From: Akkermansia sp. RCC_12PD
GTDB taxonomy: Bacteria; Verrucomicrobiota; Verrucomicrobiia; Verrucomicrobiales; Akkermansiaceae
Direction: 5' to 3'
Assembly (NCBI RefSeq): GCF_036417355.1
Contig: NZ_CP143889.1
Span: 496,001 to 560,000 of the forward strand
Length of the DNA stretch: 64,000 bases
Positions 9,449 to 49,992 of this stretch are shown here, one piece after another. The notes beneath the pieces are model-generated. The model saw only the letters and a program-made list of their open reading frames with translations. It was not told the DNA's origin and did not search any database. Within the stretch, counting starts at the first letter, position 1, and each line of letters starts with the position of its first letter. Position numbers and translations under genes: made by a program.

Positions 9449-9478
9449 TAAAAGGGGGCTGTGCCGCCACGCCCCCTT
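9449..9478 (-). terminator. Probable terminator of the DUF4013-like gene
   Basis: 9-bp stem AAAGGGGGC/GCCCCCTTT (9450-9458 and 9470-9478) with an 11-base GC-rich loop. On the minus strand it ends in TTTTAAC, 140 bases past the stop of the 9614-10291 gene. Confidence 0.5.
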
Positions 9479-9613
9479 TCCCAGCCTGCATGTCCGGCAA
9501 CCCAGCCCGAAAGGACTCATGCGGAATTTCCTCCCAGAAACGGAAAAACAAAAAAGAAAAGCTCTTACGCTCCCATCCATTCCAGAATTTCTCTACCGTC
9601 CGGAGCCCCGGCA

Positions 9614-10291
9614 TCAATCCGCACTGGAAACGGAAAAGCCGTCATCATCTTCATCCTCAGCAAATTCATGCTTCAGCAGAAACAGGCCGAAGACGTTCAT
9701 CAGCACGCAGATCATGTAAAGGATCACGGACAGCGTAAGGAAAGTCATCCATACTCCGGAAGGAAGGTACAGCACAATCACCACCCCCGCCAAAACACTG
9801 AAAACCAGTCCCAGATAAGTCATGGGCGCCTTCTTGACGAGATCCCACCAGCCGGAGGGGGAAAGGCCGTCAAAACTGTCCAGGAGAGCCGTTCTCATAA
9901 ATATCCCGGGGAAATAGATAACCCCCACTATCATGAAAAACCATGCCGGAAGAGCGTCCGGCTCCCAGTCAACCATATTCAGGTAAATGGAAAAGGGGAG
10001 AAAGGAAATGACGGCGCACACAAGAGTCCTCACATAAGGCAGAAAAAGAGACTCAAACCAGCCCTCCAACTCGGGGAAATGGCAGATTCCCTCATCGCCC
10101 ATAGCGGACTGCCTCACCATTTTCATACAGAAGGCGCACATAAAGGGGCCGAGGAAGCAGAAATTGGCAATCCAGCCGAGCACGGGAGCCCACAAGGCCA
10201 GGTACATCGCCCAGACGATCAGTACACTGAAAACAAAAACCATGGGACGTTCCCGGAAAGGATAACCCAGAGAGGAAAGGTAGTTGGACAT
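9614..10291 (-). CDS. DUF4013-like polytopic membrane protein
   Basis: A 225-residue membrane protein with about five hydrophobic segments (VFVFSVLIVWAMYLALWAPV, GWIANFCFLGPFMCAFCM, LVCAVISFLPFSIYLNM, FFMIVGVIYFPGIF, YLGLVFSVLAGVVIVLY, FLTLSVILYMICVLMNVFGL). The short N-terminal cytosolic stretch MSNYLSSLGYPFRERP and an acidic tail (EFAEDEDDDG) bracket them. The FxxGIFMRTALLDSFDG part resembles DUF4013-type proteins. ATG 10291 is preferred to the TTG six bases earlier. No function is known; it looks monocistronic. Confidence 0.75.
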   Translation of the reverse strand: MSNYLSSLGYPFRERPMVFVFSVLIVWAMYLALWAPVLGWIANFCFLGPFMCAFCMKMVRQSAMGDEGICHFPELEGWFESLFLPYVRTLVCAVISFLPFSIYLNMVDWEPDALPAWFFMIVGVIYFPGIFMRTALLDSFDGLSPSGWWDLVKKAPMTYLGLVFSVLAGVVIVLYLPSGVWMTFLTLSVILYMICVLMNVFGLFLLKHEFAEDEDDDGFSVSSAD

Positions 10292-10368
10292 ATACAAATA
10301 TCTTAGGACATTCTCTTTACATCGTCAATGCATTATTATCCATTTTCCAACAAATTTACAATACTCTG

Positions 10369-11349
10369 TCAGGAATAAAAATTCTCCACCGCACAGGCAA
10401 TTCTTTCCATCTCCTCCCTGCCGCAGCGCTGGTCTACAGGCAGGGGCAGCAGGTTCAACGCCAGCTTCCGTTCCGCTCCGTCAAACGGAGCCCATTCCAG
10501 AACTTCCGGCCACAACAGGGGAATCAGAATATGCGCGTCTATCAGCGCATCCCGCAATTCCGGCAATCCCGTCCGGAACGGATAGCAATATGGAGCAGAC
10601 ATGGTGCCTACATCCGGAGACAGCCTGTTCAAATGTCCCAGACGTTCATGCAGGAACAAGAAATTTTCCAACCTCCGGCGCCGTGCGCTTTCATAATCAA
10701 TGCCGTTGATCAGGCATTCCGTCAAACGGGACATGCGGCGCAGGGGGGCCGACTTCAGGCGCCGTTCGCTCCGTTCACATGCGCAAGAGGCCGCCTCCGG
10801 TCCGCAGGCCGCGCATTCCAGCAAAAAAGCGGCATGAGGAAGGGACTCGTCCTGCTCTTCCAGTTCCAGGCACGGACGGTCCATCACGACCACGCCGCCG
10901 TCCGGCAGGCCGGAAAATTTGCGCGGGCTGTACAGGGCCGCTGTTCGGGGGCGCGGCGAAGAATACAATGCCAGCGCATTGTCCACAATCAGCCTTTCCC
11001 CGTACCGGGCCGCCAGCATATTCACGCATGCCTCCTTAATGCCGAAGTAATTGGCGTACAGGAAATACTCTCCTTCCTCCAGAACAGGCAGGCTTTCCGG
11101 TTCCAGCCCTTCGTTAATGCGGTAAAAGGAATACGGGATACGGAGCAGCTCCATTGGTTCCAGAATCGTGGCGCATGTGTACCAGGGGACATAAATGCGG
11201 CGCACGTCGCCCAGACAGCGCAGAATGTATTCCAGAGCCCGCCTCCCGGAATTCACGGCCACGCTCCGCCCCGCATGCCATTGCGGGAAATTGCCGTACT
11301 CCGGCAATTCCAGCCCGAAAAACCCGCCTATGTCCATGCTCTTTTCCAT
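10369..11349 (-). CDS. DegT/DnrJ-like PLP-fold protein
   Basis: Probable fold-type I PLP-dependent protein related to sugar aminotransferases of the DegT/DnrJ/EryC1 group. Visible landmarks: N-terminal SGRRALEYIL, VPWYTCATILEPM, the cofactor-aspartate region LIVDNALALYSS, and SPRKFSGLPDGGVVV, whose Lys occupies the Schiff-base position with a DGG instead of the usual GEGG. Length about 325 residues, slightly shorter than typical (about 370). Several in-frame starts (ATG 11370, 11349, 11337; GTG 11424) are possible; none has a convincing Shine-Dalgarno. No neighbouring nucleotide-sugar genes support a sugar-aminotransferase role, so the substrate is open. Confidence 0.7.
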   Translation of the reverse strand: MEKSMDIGGFFGLELPEYGNFPQWHAGRSVAVNSGRRALEYILRCLGDVRRIYVPWYTCATILEPMELLRIPYSFYRINEGLEPESLPVLEEGEYFLYANYFGIKEACVNMLAARYGERLIVDNALALYSSPRPRTAALYSPRKFSGLPDGGVVVMDRPCLELEEQDESLPHAAFLLECAACGPEAASCACERSERRLKSAPLRRMSRLTECLINGIDYESARRRRLENFLFLHERLGHLNRLSPDVGTMSAPYCYPFRTGLPELRDALIDAHILIPLLWPEVLEWAPFDGAERKLALNLLPLPVDQRCGREEMERIACAVENFYS

Positions 11350-42580: not shown

Positions 42581-42748
42581 ATGAGCCTGCACATGGGAAG
42601 TACTGAAAACGCGCTGAAGGAGCAGAAAAAGCAGCGCAGCAAGGAGACGTGGAAGGCAGCGCTTGGCACTTTCCTCATCATGGCGTTCTTCTATGTCGTC
42701 ATTCCCGTGATACTCATCATTTATTTCGGCGACCCTAAAACCCCATGA
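42581..42748 (+). CDS. 55-residue single-TM protein, anchor-only relative of the toroid family
   Basis: MSLHMGSTENALKEQKKQRS at its start aligns with the first 20 residues of the three large proteins downstream (MSLHIESTDEALEELKKQRT). It is followed by one membrane helix (LGTFLIMAFFYVVIPVILII) and ends after YFGDPKTP. There is no toroid domain. A good Shine-Dalgarno (GAAGGAG) precedes ATG 42581. It is therefore an anchor-only paralogue, perhaps a regulatory or subunit-like partner, or a truncated copy that kept its translation signals. It lies alone, 270 bp ahead of copy 1. Confidence 0.7.
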   Translation: MSLHMGSTENALKEQKKQRSKETWKAALGTFLIMAFFYVVIPVILIIYFGDPKTP

Positions 42749-43015
42749 ATAACGGTTCCTGCGGATATTCCGAACGAAAACGCCCGGTGATCCATACGCA
42801 GGCCGCTTAACGAAATGCTGCCATTCGGAACAACCGCAGCACCGGAAAAGGGAAAAGCTTTCTCCGGAAAGAAACCGGAAAAAGCAACGCATTTACTACA
42901 AGGAAGCTTTTCATGCACATCTGGTCATCATGCGAATCATGACAAAGCCAGGCTTTTTAAGCTCGGCCCCGACGGGGGAGATCCGCTATACTTCGGGCGA
43001 ATAGTTTTCCACTGA

Positions 43016-44539
43016 ATGAGTCTTCACATTGAAAGTACTGACGAAGCCCTTGAAGAACTGAAAAAGCAGCGCACCAAGACCCTGGCCGCCGCCATTTCCG
43101 TTTCCGTCCTCGGCGTCGCCCTGATGGGCCTTTTGCTCTATCTGGTGCACATCATCGCCGCCATTCCGGAAGATCCTCCCATGGTGGCCTACGCCACCCA
43201 GGAAGGCGACAACCCGGACATCGACACTCCGGAGGTCACCCAGACCACCCAGCGGCCCAGCAGTTCCTCTACCGCAGCCCAGGTGAAGGTCATTGCCGCC
43301 GTAGCTTCCGCGGACGTGGCCGTGGTCAATCCGGATATTGACGTGGAAATCCCCACCGAGGAACTTTCCACGGGCATCGACATCGGCGACGGCTTCGGCA
43401 TCGGAACCGGAGACGGGGACGGCGGAGGCATTCCCGGCATCGTGTCCAAGCGGTGCGACCTGAACGACCGCATGAAGCGCATCACGGAGAACGGGGGTAC
43501 CCCGCAGTGCGAGGAGGCCGTCGTCAAGTCACTCCGCTGGCTCAAAAAGCAGCAGAACAAGGACGGCTCCTGGGGCGGCACTCCCCATAATTACAAATGT
43601 TCCATGACGGGGCTCGCCCTGCTGGCCTACCTGGCCCACTGTGAAACCCCGCTTTCCGAAGAGTTCGGAGAGAATGTGCTCAAGGGAATTTCCTTCCTCG
43701 TTGACCAGGGCATGAAGGCTCCCGTTCTTTCCCTCGTTCCGCAAAGAAACGAGGTCAGCTACGACCACGCCGTAGCCACCTACGCCCTCTGCGAAGCGTA
43801 CACGTTCTGCAAGCAGATGGACATTCCCTCCATCTCCAATCTGGAACGGGTCGTCGTGAAGGCCGTGGATAAAATTCTGGACAACCAGAACACTGACGGC
43901 GGCTGGGCCTACAATTACAACACCAGGGCCGGCGCCCACACGGACCTTTCCGTCACCGGATGGAACGTGCAGGCCCTGAAGGCCGCGGAACACGGCGGCA
44001 TCAAACCCACCAAGGGAGACATCCGCACCGCCCTGCGCAAGGCCGCCATGTATTGCCGCAAGTGCAGCAAACCGGATGGTCTGTTTACCTACATGCAGGA
44101 AGGAAGGGAGGACGCTACCGCCCGCCCGTCCCTGGTTGGCGTGGGCGTGCTGTCCCTGCAGATGTGCGGCAGCGGCTCCGACAGCGCCGCGCGCAAGGGC
44201 CTGGACTGGATGCTCAAGAATACCAACAAGCCTTTCAACTGGAAGGCTAACAACACCTCTTCCAACCTCTACCAGCATTACTACGGCGTGCAGGCGGCCA
44301 TGAACCGCGGCGGGGACGTGTGGACGGCTTACAACAGGGCGTTCCGCGACGCCACCCTGGGAGCACAGGCTTCCGACGGCAGTTTTGCCCCCAACGGATT
44401 CCCCGGCCCCGGCGGCCTGGTGAACAGCAACGGAGGCACCATCAACGACAAGATTTACCGCCAGTGCCTGGCCACGCTGATGCTGGAGGTTTATTACAGG
44501 TTCCTGCCGGGCACGGGAGAAGGAACCAGAAATTCCTAA
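43016..44539 (+). CDS. Membrane-anchored squalene-cyclase-like toroid protein, copy 1
   Basis: 507 residues. Short cytosolic start MSLHIESTDEALEELKKQRT, one helix (ISVSVLGVALMGLLLYLVHI, about 27-46), and a Pro/Thr/Ser and Gly-rich periplasmic linker (residues 50-145) of TonB-like composition. An alpha/alpha-toroid domain follows (150-507) with repeat motifs LRWLKKQQNKDGSWGG, YDHAVATYALCEAYTF, ILDNQNTDGGWAY, VTGWNVQALKAA and the terminal YRQCLATLMLEVYYRFLP. The repeats match prenyltransferase/squalene-oxidase repeat proteins common in Planctomycetes and Verrucomicrobia, whose function is unknown. No DxDD acid motif is visible, so terpene cyclisation is unlikely. First of three. Confidence 0.85.
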   Translation: MSLHIESTDEALEELKKQRTKTLAAAISVSVLGVALMGLLLYLVHIIAAIPEDPPMVAYATQEGDNPDIDTPEVTQTTQRPSSSSTAAQVKVIAAVASADVAVVNPDIDVEIPTEELSTGIDIGDGFGIGTGDGDGGGIPGIVSKRCDLNDRMKRITENGGTPQCEEAVVKSLRWLKKQQNKDGSWGGTPHNYKCSMTGLALLAYLAHCETPLSEEFGENVLKGISFLVDQGMKAPVLSLVPQRNEVSYDHAVATYALCEAYTFCKQMDIPSISNLERVVVKAVDKILDNQNTDGGWAYNYNTRAGAHTDLSVTGWNVQALKAAEHGGIKPTKGDIRTALRKAAMYCRKCSKPDGLFTYMQEGREDATARPSLVGVGVLSLQMCGSGSDSAARKGLDWMLKNTNKPFNWKANNTSSNLYQHYYGVQAAMNRGGDVWTAYNRAFRDATLGAQASDGSFAPNGFPGPGGLVNSNGGTINDKIYRQCLATLMLEVYYRFLPGTGEGTRNS

Positions 44540-44686
44540 TCTGATTGACAGACCGCCGTGTCTGGTTTTAGTATGCTGCCAGCCTTGTGAACAGCAGGGC
44601 TTGCAGCACACTTTGCCTGTCGGCAACTCTCCGTTTTTCAAGGATAAAAAGAGAATTGCCGTGGCATCAACCAGACACGTCTCTCC

Positions 44687-46189
44687 ATGAGCCTTCATAT
44701 TGAAAGTACCGACGAAGCCCTTGAAGAACTGAAAAAGCAGCGCACCAAGACCCTGGCCGCCGCCATTTCCGTTTCCGTCCTCGGCGTCGCCCTGATGGGC
44801 CTTTTGCTCTATCTGGTGCACATCATCGCCGCCATTCCGGAAGATCCTCCCATGGTGGCCTACGCCACCCAGGAAGGCGACAACCCGGACATCGACACTC
44901 CGGAGGTCACCCAGACCACCCAGCGGCCCAGCAGTTCCTCCGCCGCAGCCCAGGTGAAGGTCATTGCCGCCGTAGCTTCCGCGGACGTGGCCGTGGTCAA
45001 TCCGGATATTGACGTGGAAATCCCCACCGAGGAACTTTCCACGGGCATCGACATCGGCGACGGCTTCGGCATCGGAACCGGAAACGGGGACGGCGGAGGC
45101 ATTCCCGGCATCATATCCAAGCGGTGCGACCTGAATGACCGCATGAAGCGCATCACGGAGAACGGGGGCACCCCGCAGTGCGAGGAGGCTGTCGTCAAGT
45201 CACTCCGCTGGCTCAAAAAGCAGCAGAACGGCAACGGTTCCTGGGGCGACGGACAGTTCAAGGCATCCATGACCGGCATTACCCTGCTGGCCTATCTGGC
45301 CCACTGTGAAACCCCGCTTTCCGAAGAGTTCGGAGAGAACGTGCTCAAGGGCATTTCCTTCCTCGTAGACCTGGGCATGAAAAACCCGGTCATTTCCGAA
45401 CAACCCGGCCTGAAGGAAATCTGCTATGACCACGCCGTAGCGACTTACGCCCTCTGCGAAGCGTACACGTTCTGCAAGCAGATGGACATTCCCTCCATCT
45501 CCAATCTGGAACGGGTCGTCGTGAAGGCTGTGGACAGGATTCTGGATGCCCAGTGCCCCAACGGAGGATGGGCTTACAGCTACAATAACAGGATCAATCC
45601 GAACATCGACCTTTCCGTTACCGGATGGAACGTGCAGGCCCTGAAGGCCGCGGAACACGGCGGCGTCAAGCCCACCAAGGGCGAGATCCGCACCGCCTTG
45701 CGCAAGGCCGCCATGTACTGCCGCAAGAACGTCATGCCCGACGGGAAATTCTCCTATAAGGAAAACGGGGAAAGTCCCCGTTCCTCCCTGGTGGGCGTGG
45801 GCGTGCTCTCCCTGCAAATGACCGGCAACGGTTCCGACAGCGCCGCGCGCAAAGGGCTGGACTGGATCAAGAACAACGTCAAGACACTGGAATGGGGCAA
45901 GGGTTCCGGCACGGAGAACGTCAAGAGCAACCTTTACATGCACTATTACTGCGTGCAGGCGGCCATGAACCGCGGCGGGGATGTATGGACCTCCTACAAC
46001 AGGGCTTTCCGCGATGCCGTTCTCGGCGGCCAGAAGCCGGACGGCAGCTTCAGCAACAACGATACGGGCTATGCCGAATGCCTGAGCGGAAAGTCCAAGA
46101 ATATCTACCGCCAGTGCCTGGCCACATTGATGCTGGAAACCTACTACCGCTTCCTTCCCGGCACCGGTGAAGGAACCAAGAATTCCTGA
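44687..46189 (+). CDS. Membrane-anchored squalene-cyclase-like toroid protein, copy 2
   Basis: 500 residues. Anchor and linker (1-175) are almost identical to copy 1, with only scattered differences such as Thr/Ala at about residue 85, Asp/Asn at about 133 and Val/Ile at about 142. From KKQQNGNGSWGDGQFKASMT on, the toroid differs by substitutions and by two length changes. It carries LVDLGMKNPVISEQPGLKEI and the loop NVKTLEWGKGSGTENVKSN where copies 1 and 3 have KPFNWKANNTSSN. Terminal helix YRQCLATLMLETYYRFLP. It has its own 147-bp upstream gap and a strong terminator behind it (46211-46246). Confidence 0.85.
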   Translation: MSLHIESTDEALEELKKQRTKTLAAAISVSVLGVALMGLLLYLVHIIAAIPEDPPMVAYATQEGDNPDIDTPEVTQTTQRPSSSSAAAQVKVIAAVASADVAVVNPDIDVEIPTEELSTGIDIGDGFGIGTGNGDGGGIPGIISKRCDLNDRMKRITENGGTPQCEEAVVKSLRWLKKQQNGNGSWGDGQFKASMTGITLLAYLAHCETPLSEEFGENVLKGISFLVDLGMKNPVISEQPGLKEICYDHAVATYALCEAYTFCKQMDIPSISNLERVVVKAVDRILDAQCPNGGWAYSYNNRINPNIDLSVTGWNVQALKAAEHGGVKPTKGEIRTALRKAAMYCRKNVMPDGKFSYKENGESPRSSLVGVGVLSLQMTGNGSDSAARKGLDWIKNNVKTLEWGKGSGTENVKSNLYMHYYCVQAAMNRGGDVWTSYNRAFRDAVLGGQKPDGSFSNNDTGYAECLSGKSKNIYRQCLATLMLETYYRFLPGTGEGTKNS

Positions 46190-46210
46190 CGGGATTCATC
46201 AGTTTTCCAC

Positions 46211-46246
46211 AGCCGCCCTTCCTCCGGGAAAGGCGGCTTTTTCTTT
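46211..46246 (+). terminator. Terminator of toroid copy 2
   Basis: AGCCGCC...GGCGGCT stem (46211-46217, 46232-46238) with an inner TTCC/GGAA extension and TTTTTCTTT tail, 22 bases past the stop. Confidence 0.85.
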
Positions 46247-46418
46247 GCGGCCGACCTCTTCCGGAAGCAGTCCCTGAAGCCATGCAGGCGCAGAACATAT
46301 TCTCCGCATAAGTAACAATTTGGTAACAACACACTAATTACAAGCTAATTATAAATTTTAATCTTGCTCATGAGATATTTTGGAGAGATGGTGAAATCAA
46401 TAACCAACCCATCTATTC

Positions 46419-47963
46419 ATGAGCCTGCATATTGAAAGTACAGAAGAAGTCCTGGCGGAATTAAAAAGGCAACGCGCCAAATCCCTGGCTGCCGCCGTTA
46501 CCGTCTCCTTTCTCGGCGTTGCCCTGATGGGACTCCTGCTCTATCTGGTGAATATCATCACCGCCATTCCGGAAGATCCTGCCGTCACCGTGTACCCGAC
46601 GGACGAAAGAAAAGGCGAGGACCCCATCAAACCGGAAATAACCCGGCCACAACGTCCCAGCAGTTCTCAGCGAAACTCGGAAGTAAAAATCGTTGTCTCC
46701 ACCGCCGCCACGGACGTCCCGATAAACAATCCGGAAATTGACGTGGAAATTCCCTCCGATTCCTTTTCCGACGGCCTGGAATTCGGAAACAACATCGGCT
46801 TTGACAACGGAAAGGGACCAGGCGGATACACTCCGGACAACATTACTCTTTCCAAGCGCTGCGACCTGAATGACCGCATGAAGCGCATCACGGAGAACGG
46901 GGGTACCCCGCAGTGCGAGGAGGCCGTCGTCAAGTCACTCCGCTGGCTCAAAAAGCAGCAGAACAAGGACGGCTCCTGGGGCGGCACTCCCCATAATTAC
47001 AAATGTTCCATGACGGGGCTCGCCCTGCTGGCCTACCTGGCCCACTGTGAAACCCCGCTTTCCGAAGAGTTCGGAGAGAATGTGCTCAAGGGAATTTCCT
47101 TCCTCGTTGACCAGGGCATGAAGGCTCCCGTTCTTTCCCTCGTTCCGCAAAGAAACGAGGTCAGCTACGACCACGCCGTAGCCACCTACGCCCTCTGCGA
47201 AGCGTACACGTTCTGCAAGCAGATGGACATTCCCTCCATCTCCAATCTGGAACGGGTCGTCGTGAAGGCCGTGGATAAAATTCTGGACAACCAGAACACT
47301 GACGGCGGCTGGGCCTACAATTACAACACCAGGGCCGGCGCCCACACGGACCTTTCCGTCACCGGATGGAACGTGCAGGCCCTGAAGGCCGCGGAACACG
47401 GCGGCATCAAACCCACCAAGGGAGACATCCGCACCGCCCTGCGCAAGGCCGCCATGTATTGCCGCAAGTGCAGCAAACCGGATGGTCTGTTTACCTACAT
47501 GCAGGAAGGAAGGGAGGACGCTACCGCCCGCCCGTCCCTGGTTGGCGTGGGCGTGCTGTCCCTGCAGATGTGCGGCAGCGGCTCCGACAGCGCCGCGCGC
47601 AAGGGCCTGGACTGGATGCTCAAGAATACCAACAAGCCTTTCAACTGGAAGGCTAACAACACCTCTTCCAACCTCTACCAGCATTACTACGGCGTGCAGG
47701 CGGCCATGAACCGCGGCGGGGACGTGTGGACGGCTTACAACAGGGCGTTCCGCGACGCCACCCTGGGAGCACAGGCTTCCGACGGCAGTTTTGCCCCCAA
47801 CGGATTCCCCGGCCCCGGCGGCCTGGTGAACAGCAACGGAGGCACCATCAACGACAAGATTTACCGCCAGTGCCTGGCCACGCTGATGCTGGAGGTTTAT
47901 TACAGGTTCCTGCCGGGCACGGGAGAAGGAACCAGAATGGCCTTCAATCGTCCGGTTTTGTGA
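46419..47963 (+). CDS. Membrane-anchored squalene-cyclase-like toroid protein, copy 3
   Basis: 514 residues. Anchor of the same type (MSLHIESTEEVLAELKRQRA, one helix VSFLGVALMGLLLYLVNII). A diverged linker follows (ITRPQRPSSSQRNSEVKIVV, later NNPEIDVEIPSDSFSDGLEF). From KRCDLNDRMKRITENGG through GTGEGTR the protein equals copy 1, and the DNA 46872-47937 appears identical to 43466-44531. The end differs: MAFNRPVL replaces NS, because the shared tract stops inside the last codons. An AT-rich leader (46300-46418), unlike those of copies 1 and 2, suggests separate expression control. Confidence 0.85.
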   Translation: MSLHIESTEEVLAELKRQRAKSLAAAVTVSFLGVALMGLLLYLVNIITAIPEDPAVTVYPTDERKGEDPIKPEITRPQRPSSSQRNSEVKIVVSTAATDVPINNPEIDVEIPSDSFSDGLEFGNNIGFDNGKGPGGYTPDNITLSKRCDLNDRMKRITENGGTPQCEEAVVKSLRWLKKQQNKDGSWGGTPHNYKCSMTGLALLAYLAHCETPLSEEFGENVLKGISFLVDQGMKAPVLSLVPQRNEVSYDHAVATYALCEAYTFCKQMDIPSISNLERVVVKAVDKILDNQNTDGGWAYNYNTRAGAHTDLSVTGWNVQALKAAEHGGIKPTKGDIRTALRKAAMYCRKCSKPDGLFTYMQEGREDATARPSLVGVGVLSLQMCGSGSDSAARKGLDWMLKNTNKPFNWKANNTSSNLYQHYYGVQAAMNRGGDVWTAYNRAFRDATLGAQASDGSFAPNGFPGPGGLVNSNGGTINDKIYRQCLATLMLEVYYRFLPGTGEGTRMAFNRPVL

Positions 47964-48086
47964 CGGTCCGTCAACTGCTGCTCCTTCCTGCGGGCAGCCT
48001 CTCCTGCATCCCTCCATGCATCTTAAATCCTGACTTGACCGGAACTGTTTCTCTTGTTATTCATACGGTTTCCATTATCCAATAAC

Positions 48087-48614
48087 GTGAATAACAATTC
48101 TTCCATCCTTTTCGGTCGTTTTGACGAATTCCTCTGGATTCGGTGCTCCGGCCGCGGCAGTTTTTCCAACAGTCCCACGGTGAAGTCCCTGGGGGACGAA
48201 TACATCGCCTCCGGAGGGCGCCTGATCGTGATTGATCTGGAAACATGCTCCGGCATTGATTCCACTTTCATGGGAACCCTCGCGGGGCTGGCCCGCAGGC
48301 TGATGCCCATTGACGGAGCCGTGCAGATAGCTTCCCCAAGCGAACGTTGCCTTTGCGCCCTGGAAAGCCTGGGACTGGACGCCCTGCTGAGTATTGAACC
48401 GCCCACCGCTCCCTGGCGGGGCAAGGTGGAGCAAATACGCGCCAACCTCGGTACGGAAACCGCCCCCACCGTTCACCTGGACGCCAGGGACCAAACCCTC
48501 CATGTTCTCGACTCCCATCTGACTCTGAGCGAGCTGAGCGAAGAGAACGAAGAAAAGTTCCGCAATGTTACCGACTGCCTCAAAGACGAGCTGAAGAGGC
48601 AGAAGGACCAGTAA
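48087..48614 (+). CDS. STAS-domain protein
   Basis: About 175 residues. Anti-anti-sigma-like STAS domain: GRGSFSNSPTVKSLGDEYIA, strand LIVIDLETCSGIDSTFMGTL with Ser in the phosphorylatable position, helix AGLARRLMP, then a short variable C-terminal part (LTLSELSEENEEKFRNVTDC). GTG 48087 is chosen because the frame further upstream reaches only a TTG and passes into spacer sequence. No partner kinase or phosphatase gene is adjacent. It probably forms a transcription unit with the DUF2851 gene 16 bp downstream. Confidence 0.8.
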   Translation: MNNNSSILFGRFDEFLWIRCSGRGSFSNSPTVKSLGDEYIASGGRLIVIDLETCSGIDSTFMGTLAGLARRLMPIDGAVQIASPSERCLCALESLGLDALLSIEPPTAPWRGKVEQIRANLGTETAPTVHLDARDQTLHVLDSHLTLSELSEENEEKFRNVTDCLKDELKRQKDQ

Positions 48615-48630
48615 ATCCTCCCCTCCGGAT

Positions 48631-49992
48631 ATGGACATGAGTTCCCTGGCCTCCCTGTACAGGAGCGCCCTTTCCTCCAATGAAGCGGATTCCGTCAGGG
48701 AACGGGCCGGTTCCCGGCATTCCACATTGCCGGATGAACGCACGCTTCAGCTTCTGTTGCTGGAAGGCAGGTTCGGCTTTTCCTTCACGGACGACCTGGG
48801 AAGATCCGTCCGTATTGTGGACTGCGGAGACTGGAACAAGTCCGCCGGGCCGGATTTTCTGAATGCCCGCATTCAACTGGACGACGTTACACACACGGGA
48901 GACATGGAACTGGATTCCGCTCCGGAAGACTGGGAACGCCACAATCACGGCTCCAATCCCGCATTTGACGGTGTCATTCTGCATCTTGTCTGCACCCCGA
49001 GCCGCAGGGAATGGTTCACCCGCAATTCCCGGCATGAACGCATCCCTCTGGCCGTCATTCCGGCATCCATGCTGAATGGTGCGGGAGCCGTACCGGCCGC
49101 TGCACCGGAACGCTCCTGCCTCCATGCGGAGATTCTGGAAACGATGCCTGCCGAACAGGTGGAAACTCTGTTGCAATCCGCGGCCGCTCACCGCTTCCAA
49201 CTCAAGCACCGCCGGCACGCGCAACGAGCCAAACTGGCGGATCCCTCGCAGCTTTTATACGAAAACCTGGCGGAAACGCTGGGTTACCACGCCAATAAAA
49301 ACGCCATGCGCCATCTGGCACAGCGGGTTCCCCTGCGTATGCTCCGGGATTGCCCCGAAGCCCTGCTCTTCGGTGCCGCAGGCTTTCTGGTTCCCGTGCT
49401 TTCCGATTCCTGCACGCCGGAAGCCGTAACCCACCATAAAAGGCTGTGGGCGCAATGGTGGCCCCTGCGCGAGCATTTTGAACTGGCGCCGGAACGCCTG
49501 TTTCCCTGGACACTGTCGGGCAGCAGGCCAGCCAATCATCCCCAGCGGCGCGTCGGCGCTCTGGCAACTATTGCCGCTGATTTTTCCACCTTCCAGCGGC
49601 TTTGCACCCTCGACCATCTGGATGATCTGGCGGGTTATCTTTCCTCCCTGAAACATCCATACTGGAGCAACCATGTCACGCTGCCTTCCGCTCCTTCCAA
49701 AAACCCCATGGCCCTGATGGGCCACGACCGCATTCAGGAATTCATCATCAACCACATTCTGCCGGGGGAAGGCTCCGAGAAGGCGTGGAAACTGTATCTG
49801 ACGCGCCAGGGAGTTCATGCGGGCGCCAGAGTCCTTTCCATCCACCAGCGCCTTCTGGGAAAGAGAAAAGATGCGGCCGCCTTCCTCAAGAGGGCATGGC
49901 ACCACCAGGCTCTTCTCCAGATTCATGAAGACCTGTGTTTCCGGCATTCCTGCTGCATATGCTCCCTGCTGGAGCATATGAAGAATGCCTGA
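48631..49992 (+). CDS. DUF2851 family protein
   Basis: 453 residues. Recognisable by DERTLQLLLLEGRFGFSFTD, DWNKSAGPDFLNARIQLDD and GDMELDSAPEDWERHNHGSN then PAFDGVILHLV, the core of DUF2851, where conserved Asp/Glu/His suggest a metal site. A C-terminal helical half ends in a Cys-rich tail (CFRHSCCICSLLEHM). Function unknown; the fold may be nuclease-like by its E/D pattern. The gene follows the STAS gene closely. Confidence 0.88.
   Translation: MDMSSLASLYRSALSSNEADSVRERAGSRHSTLPDERTLQLLLLEGRFGFSFTDDLGRSVRIVDCGDWNKSAGPDFLNARIQLDDVTHTGDMELDSAPEDWERHNHGSNPAFDGVILHLVCTPSRREWFTRNSRHERIPLAVIPASMLNGAGAVPAAAPERSCLHAEILETMPAEQVETLLQSAAAHRFQLKHRRHAQRAKLADPSQLLYENLAETLGYHANKNAMRHLAQRVPLRMLRDCPEALLFGAAGFLVPVLSDSCTPEAVTHHKRLWAQWWPLREHFELAPERLFPWTLSGSRPANHPQRRVGALATIAADFSTFQRLCTLDHLDDLAGYLSSLKHPYWSNHVTLPSAPSKNPMALMGHDRIQEFIINHILPGEGSEKAWKLYLTRQGVHAGARVLSIHQRLLGKRKDAAAFLKRAWHHQALLQIHEDLCFRHSCCICSLLEHMKNA

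Follow-up and report, generated by a model that had tools for sequence, protein, structure and literature searches.

In the 64,000-nucleotide stretch of the Akkermansia sp. RCC_12PD genome analysed here (hereafter the window; C1:496001-560000, on the single 3.17-Mb contig of the genome), three tandem forward-strand genes encode proteins of 507, 500 and 514 amino acids (aa) that each combine a membrane anchor, a linker and an alpha/alpha-toroid: copy 1 at 43016..44539, copy 2 at 44687..46189 and copy 3 at 46419..47963 (G, C and L numbers are our handles for genomes, contigs and loci). All three exceed the cut-off of 26.1 bits for Pfam SQHop_cyclase_C (49.3, 31.7 and 49.2 bits for copies 1, 2 and 3), which bears out the first-pass annotation of this DNA in its description of three proteins of about 500 residues with this layout. 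The array start that it gave, 42581, is instead the ATG of a separate 55-aa open reading frame (ORF; 42581..42748, forward strand) that begins with MSLH and translates into an anchor only, one hydrophobic helix without linker or head. This small ORF was recovered by a whole-genome search with a 60-aa anchor (E 0.0012, 46% over 47 aa); it has a DNA counterpart 5′ of copy 1 in G004 and L061, and none at that place in G017, L062 and L064. The three array genes are confirmed as real rather than chance ORFs, because the related L123 protein, used as query against the 189 genomes of the window's order (E ≤ 1e-30), matches 167 of them in 42 of 43 genera, and matches the window's genome three times. 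The closest named relatives (L061-L064) are Akkermansia or Akkermansiaceae.

A structure was predicted for copy 2, from an alignment with 55 further sequences (mean predicted local distance difference test score, pLDDT, 80.5; 296 residues at 90 or above). In this model a membrane-anchor helix at residues 9-49 (44711..44833) leads into a linker of about 83 residues with pLDDT below 50 (residues 57-139; 44855..45103) and then into a helical toroid head at about residues 141-490 (45107..46156). A single transmembrane helix at the N-terminus, an unstructured linker and a folded head make up a transducer-type layout. Membrane helices are oriented by the positive-inside rule, and since the anchor helix is flanked by K/R on its N side and by P/E/D on its C side, the toroid heads should be periplasmic. 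The TonB-like design read from the letters alone, an anchor with a long arm and a head, thus stands, and the motif and motor genes of relatives described below agree with it. The linker itself had been called TonB-like and Pro/Gly-rich, which needs correction: residues 50-143 of copy 2 include 12 G, 10 D, 9 P, 9 V, 8 T, 6 E, 1 K and 1 R, a Gly/Asp/Val/Pro/Thr-rich and acidic composition, whereas the Escherichia coli TonB linker is of a charged, Pro-rich type. Searches of copies 1-3 against Pfam (E ≤ 1) found no TonB_C, TolA C-terminal or vWA domain.

The closest fold to the copy 2 toroid is that of squalene-hopene cyclase (Z 26.4, 295 aligned residues, root mean square deviation 2.9 Å, 19% identity), with other toroids ranked lower, among them sugar epimerases (Z 23.6) and a GH76 mannanase (Z 22.6) (VIA; Foldseek was also run). 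These matches, together with the many invariant W, Y, E, D, Q and R residues that the head shows across the family, would suit a membrane-tethered enzyme in which the toroid serves as a terpene cyclase, polysaccharide lyase, epimerase or hydrolase, and the protein of one relative, L116, scores above the Pfam Pec_lyase cut-off (23.4 versus 22 bits). This match spans 29 residues, and a pectate lyase was dropped as a candidate. A terpene cyclase was likewise dropped, for want of the DxDD motif and of a second barrel: D.DD occurs in none of copies 1-3, as had been noted before; when profiles were aligned with the cyclase, the one DVDD residue to find a counterpart was the final Asp, in a segment weak enough (6.9 bits) to serve as a guide only; and the copy 2 model holds one toroid of about 350 residues against a cyclase chain of 623. 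We accordingly regard a tethered enzyme as improbable. Each of the three proteins has two QW-like stretches, and C147 and C207, a putative disulfide pair, are invariant in 18/18 and in 56/56 sequences.

The array is a gene-conversion mosaic. Synonymous divergence (dS) between copies 1 and 2 is 0.043 in the anchor and 0.603 in the head, and between copies 1 and 3 it is 0.723 in the anchor and 0.008 in the head. In DNA comparison the anchor and linker of copy 1 (43016..43447, forward strand) differ from those of copy 2 (44687-45118) at 8 of 432 bases, and a 1,066-bp head tract of copy 1 (43466..44531, forward strand) is identical to the tract at 46872..47937 in copy 3. Heads otherwise stay by position, the copy 2 head of the window being 86.0% like that of G017 copy 2 and 78.3% like that of its own copy 1. 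The copy 3 head is 92.9% like G004 copy 1 and 88.3% like G004 copy 3, from which we infer that copy 1 overwrote copy 3, the likely recipient of the tract.

Anchors of copies 1 and 2 are 98.1% alike in the window, 95.1% in G004, 98.8% in G017, 95.4% in L061, 97.9% in L062 and 94.0% in L064, and in four of these six genomes (the window, G017, L062 and L064) they are closer to each other than to copies 1 or 2 of any other genome. In G004 and L061 they are not closest within the genome; there the copies 2 are 97.0% alike between the two genomes, so the conversion is older in this pair. A functionally meaningless origin of the likeness, by misassembly or plain recent duplication, might be suspected from a perfectly identical 1,066-bp tract in one assembly, but in all six genomes copies 1 and 2 combine like anchors with unlike heads, and dS values of 0.04 and 0.60 within one gene pair cannot result from a plain duplication. 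The same pattern recurs in tandem pairs outside Akkermansia, where the anchor is more than 5 points more alike than the head in five of nine pairs (L035, L094, L104, L220 and L224); it is no rule, the head being the more alike in L082, L138 and L229 and neither in L239. (This comparison covers heads that pass a length filter, so that L113, L132, L134, L140, L163, L167, L169 and the third copy of L094 have no row, and L096 repeats L035.) We consider misassembly or duplication the least probable of the explanations weighed here. Differences between heads 1 and 2 fall at 62 of 144 non-helical and 22 of 209 helical positions (Fisher p 3e-12), as expected of most proteins.

Some array copies are interrupted elsewhere: copy 2 of the close relative G004 is split over two frames (G004:C1:1873862-1875357) and copy 3 of L061 is likewise broken, by sequencing error or decay. 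The toroids of a second tandem pair, which are anchor-free (G000:C1, L052:8447-9460 and 9450-10475), have a signal-peptide-like start, a long near-identical middle and unlike ends, and gene conversion may act there too.

Beyond the order, a survey of 145 genomes within the window's phylum, with the L123 head as query (E ≤ 1e-20), gave matches in 53, of which 11 belong to the genus, 1 to the order and 41 lie outside the class; the PVC family to which the first-pass annotation assigned the toroid was sampled in this one phylum. Some of these matches are short and probably come from anchor-free toroids. When 19 genomes of the genus were compared with the array, the array itself was present in G000, G004 and G017 and a divergent toroid in G015; in 13 the match was confined to roughly the first 140-166 residues, and in G010 and G018 there was none. 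At four loci (L040; L049, which shares a contig with L139; L113; and L140) the toroid transducers are longer, at 678-786 aa, and have a long N-terminal stretch ahead of the membrane helix; L040 has a sub-cut-off NCBIfam match to a TPR lipoprotein.

Motor genes adjoin the toroid genes of many relatives. Outside the class we chose 20 regions, for the most part top matches, in 19 of the 41 genomes with a match; ExbB and/or ExbD lies directly upstream on the same strand in 13 loci (in L237 ExbD only, at a contig edge) and neither is present in the other 7. Within the order, 7 of the best 30 loci for the L123 toroid query are motor-linked, namely the six best, where the toroid is immediately preceded by two ExbD genes and the end of an ExbB gene, and L174. 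Examined gene by gene, the order TPR-p277-ExbB-ExbD-ExbD-toroid is complete in seven of nine loci (L116, L123, L136 and L179-L182); one Akkermansiaceae clade keeps TPR-ExbB-ExbD-ExbD-toroid; L183, from another family, has no p277 match and a weak TPR match, and L184 has the toroid only. The 3′ flank of this operon holds PA14 in L179-L181 and ExbB2-ExbD-TPR790 in L116 and L182, while L123 and L136 have neither there. Pfam confirmed ExbB and ExbD in L227 and L233 and one ExbD in L123. As the genomes tested have 7-14 ExbD matches in 3.0-7.8 Mb, we judge it unlikely that motor and toroid genes are adjacent by chance. The first-pass annotation had proposed to look for ExbB/ExbD/Tol neighbours elsewhere, and they are there in these relatives but not beside the window's array. 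Because relatives' toroid genes stand beside genes for proton-driven motors, the family suggests a little-known kind of machine reaching across the cell envelope. As a separate observation, contigs C8, C9, C11 and C13 of G172 carry four ExbD matches of 96.8 bits each, perhaps a repeated element with motor genes.

The [S/A]xxxH motif, through which TonB and TolA contact their motor, is common in the anchors outside the class. TonB H20A and TolA H22A are reported to abolish colicin activity (PMC10666116), and in both proteins a 'motor box' strand follows the transmembrane helix (PMC10666116, PMC12204202). Outside the class we took 24 toroid ORFs from the 20 regions, set aside 2 with too short an N-terminus and found [S/A]xxxH in 19 of the 22 remaining anchors, 18 of them SxxxH. 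A pattern sort of 154 toroid ORFs of the order, a set that holds some genomes twice, gave 39 with xxxH, 80 with MSLH, 22 of other types and 13 without an anchor, the toroid proteins of Akkermansiaceae having mostly the MSLH anchor, which lacks the histidine. A strand-like pattern, [IVLM]x[FYW] in the 30 aa that follow the helix, occurs in 78 of 83 His-less arms (shuffled mean 20.2) and in 23 of 31 His-bearing arms (shuffled mean 6.9), counts for a pattern that was chosen after the sequences had been seen and that ignore relatedness; copies 1 and 2 have it. In a midpoint-rooted quick tree of 130 heads, from which short and identical ones had been removed, 9 of 10 ExbBD-linked heads form one clade (Shimodaira-Hasegawa-like approximate likelihood ratio test, 100).

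A second kind of head is borne by the same kinds of anchor. In the window's genome a further MSLH anchor, again His-less, is followed by a PA14 domain (26.4 bits against a cut-off of 24). Across the order, 61 of 189 genomes have such PA14 heads (E ≤ 1e-10), and among 34 distinct anchors of such proteins 6 are xxxH, 13 MSLH and 15 of other types, 3 more being too short. In three genomes (G112, G080 and G169) the PA14 gene adjoins a toroid gene with the same kind of anchor. The genus member G013, which has no toroid array, has a row of six anchor matches (G013:C30:5718-13614) and a seventh at 44236, several of them with PA14 heads (L022, L145). The PA14-headed proteins, the anchor-only ORF and the gene-conversion mosaic were all missing from the first-pass annotation, whose reading is in part supported.

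On this evidence we favour, at a probability of about 0.58, the reading that the array proteins are inner-membrane-anchored, periplasm-spanning arms with a toroid binding head, descended from TonB/TolA-like force transducers and probably sharing a common inner-membrane partner. In the presumed ancestral form, seen in one Akkermansiaceae clade and elsewhere in the phylum in other families and classes, an ExbB-ExbD-ExbD proton motor would grip the helix through [S/A]xxxH and move the toroid head, whose ligand would be engaged either in the periplasm or at the outer membrane; motor drive in these relatives is inferred. The ligand may be a glycan or envelope polymer, a glycan being suggested by the fold neighbours and the PA14 partner only. 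The window's copies would be a derived branch from which the motor-binding His and the motor neighbours have gone. In Akkermansiaceae, with their mostly His-less MSLH anchors and, in the window's genome, a PA14 head on one of them, the arms would most likely still plug into one common inner-membrane partner, in view of the gene conversion that holds anchors 1 and 2 alike and leaves the heads different. This partner could be an ExbB/ExbD motor of the same genome that has no recognisable transducer gene adjacent.

In the window's genome ExbB is matched at four places and ExbD at three. Inspected by eye, two of these loci (1,685 and 1,824 kb) are without a transducer-like neighbour; candidate transducers of 439 and 255 aa stand by the loci at 2,709 and 1,775 kb. 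This makes it thinkable, and no more, that the array's arms work in trans with such motors. The ExbB and TPR810 genes at 1,824 kb match genes 3′ of the L116 toroid (42% over 224 aa and 30% over 792 aa). A link of the array to the ExbB-ExbD-ExbD-TPR1110-p343 locus at 1,685 kb was rejected, p277 and p343 showing no match (hhalign probability 0.8%); the TPR proteins of the toroid operon and of this locus do align (probability 92%, E 6e-7, 423 columns, 1% identity), which we read as generic TPR likeness. We suspect that the 1,685-kb locus is the mucin-utilisation locus MUL1, and claim no link. In a bolder and doubtful version, one ExbB-ExbD-ExbD motor would serve interchangeable toroid and PA14 heads throughout Verrucomicrobiota, conversion fixing the anchor as the heads diversify, and the expanded, His-less set of Akkermansia would work in trans with motors encoded elsewhere, pulling glycans or outer-membrane parts across the envelope.

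Several findings weigh against descent from force transducers and continued coupling. The motor-binding His is absent from the anchors of copies 1-3, and 3 of the 22 anchors outside the class also lack the motif; copy 3 fails the strand-like pattern. No ExbB or ExbD gene lies by the array, the nearest being about 1 Mb or more away; 23 of the best 30 order loci have none within 1.5 kb, and only 5 of 80 near-relative loci have one in reach, 3 co-oriented (L116, L123 and L136) and 2 divergent (L069 and L083). The tree, as drawn, places the ExbBD-linked clade inside the His-less group, so that anchor exchange, not simple loss, must be assumed. The family is phylum-wide but patchy, as the 53 matches in 145 genomes include none from another order of the class, and about half of the sampled genus lacks a toroid (14 listed genomes with, G015 and G063 weakly; 12 without).

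Much of this would be accommodated if the Akkermansiaceae family had left the motor and its anchors now merely held a glycan- or envelope-binding head in the periplasm as static tethers: the whole MSLH class lacks the His, motor genes are rare near close relatives, and anchor-free toroids are present in the same genome. Static tethers would not obviously need anchors 1 and 2 to be closest within the genome, as they are in four of six, nor do they sit easily with a strand-like pattern kept in nearly all His-less arms or with an anchor common to a PA14-headed protein, and we think them the less likely account of the Akkermansiaceae proteins. For the window's own copies the choice between motor coupling through another contact and static tethering is close to even, and we lean to coupling because the anchors have been kept alike.

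Immediately 3′ of the array, at 48054-49992, lie a STAS-domain gene and a DUF2851 gene (Pfam). A DUF2851 gene also adjoins the toroid gene of another family at L036, and the DUF2851 cluster has 6 members. When 791 ORFs around toroid genes of the window's own class were clustered, from the window, L036 and 80 loci (82 sources), no neighbour family recurred in more than 11 of the 82.

A head of toroid type, present in 42 of the 43 genera sampled in one order, in many further families of the phylum and often beside a motor, would widen the transducer class beyond TonB, TolA and vWA proteins, and would hint at what is done by those proteins for which family libraries give no match but squalene cyclases and other toroids. 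Accumulation of mucin products inside Akkermansia is said, in PMC12418764 and PMC13174399, to need genes for pili and periplasmic protein complexes; for gut Akkermansia the array proteins would be candidates for how mucin products enter internal compartments (the process described in the former). The mucin-utilisation loci concern the same organism group, and no link to them is claimed for the array proteins.

Among open-licence PMC papers we found no toroid- or PA14-headed transducers: the available portions of PMC13274419, PMC12905483, PMC9022066, PMC11790493, PMC11480725 and PMC13335810 hold nothing on them, and the words 'squalene', 'PA14', 'toroid', 'prenyltransferase' and 'Akkermansia' are absent from the main text of PMC12204202. 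With squalene-hopene cyclases and other toroids the array proteins share the toroid fold and QW-like repeats, but they differ from the cyclases in having one barrel, no DxDD, a membrane arm and a head predicted to be periplasmic. With TonB and TolA they share the anchor-linker-head design and, in their relatives, [S/A]xxxH and ExbB/ExbD neighbours; they differ in lacking the TonB/TolA C-terminal domain and, in the window's copies, the His. The nearest parallel is with the vWA-headed force transducers on ExbBD/TolQR-type motors described in 2025 (Williams-Jones et al., PMC12204202), which likewise have a single transmembrane helix, a motor-binding His in many members, a disordered linker of about 100 residues and a non-TonB head. 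The head there is vWA, here an alpha/alpha-toroid or PA14, and the window's branch, a converted array, is without His and motor linkage. The vWA locus order, TPR, tolQ-like, two tolR-like and transducer, is not at the window but is found at L116, L123, L136 and L179-L182, and at L183 with a TPR match that is weak. The best account of the lineage is a TonB-like transducer that bears a foreign head, on a par with the vWA proteins.

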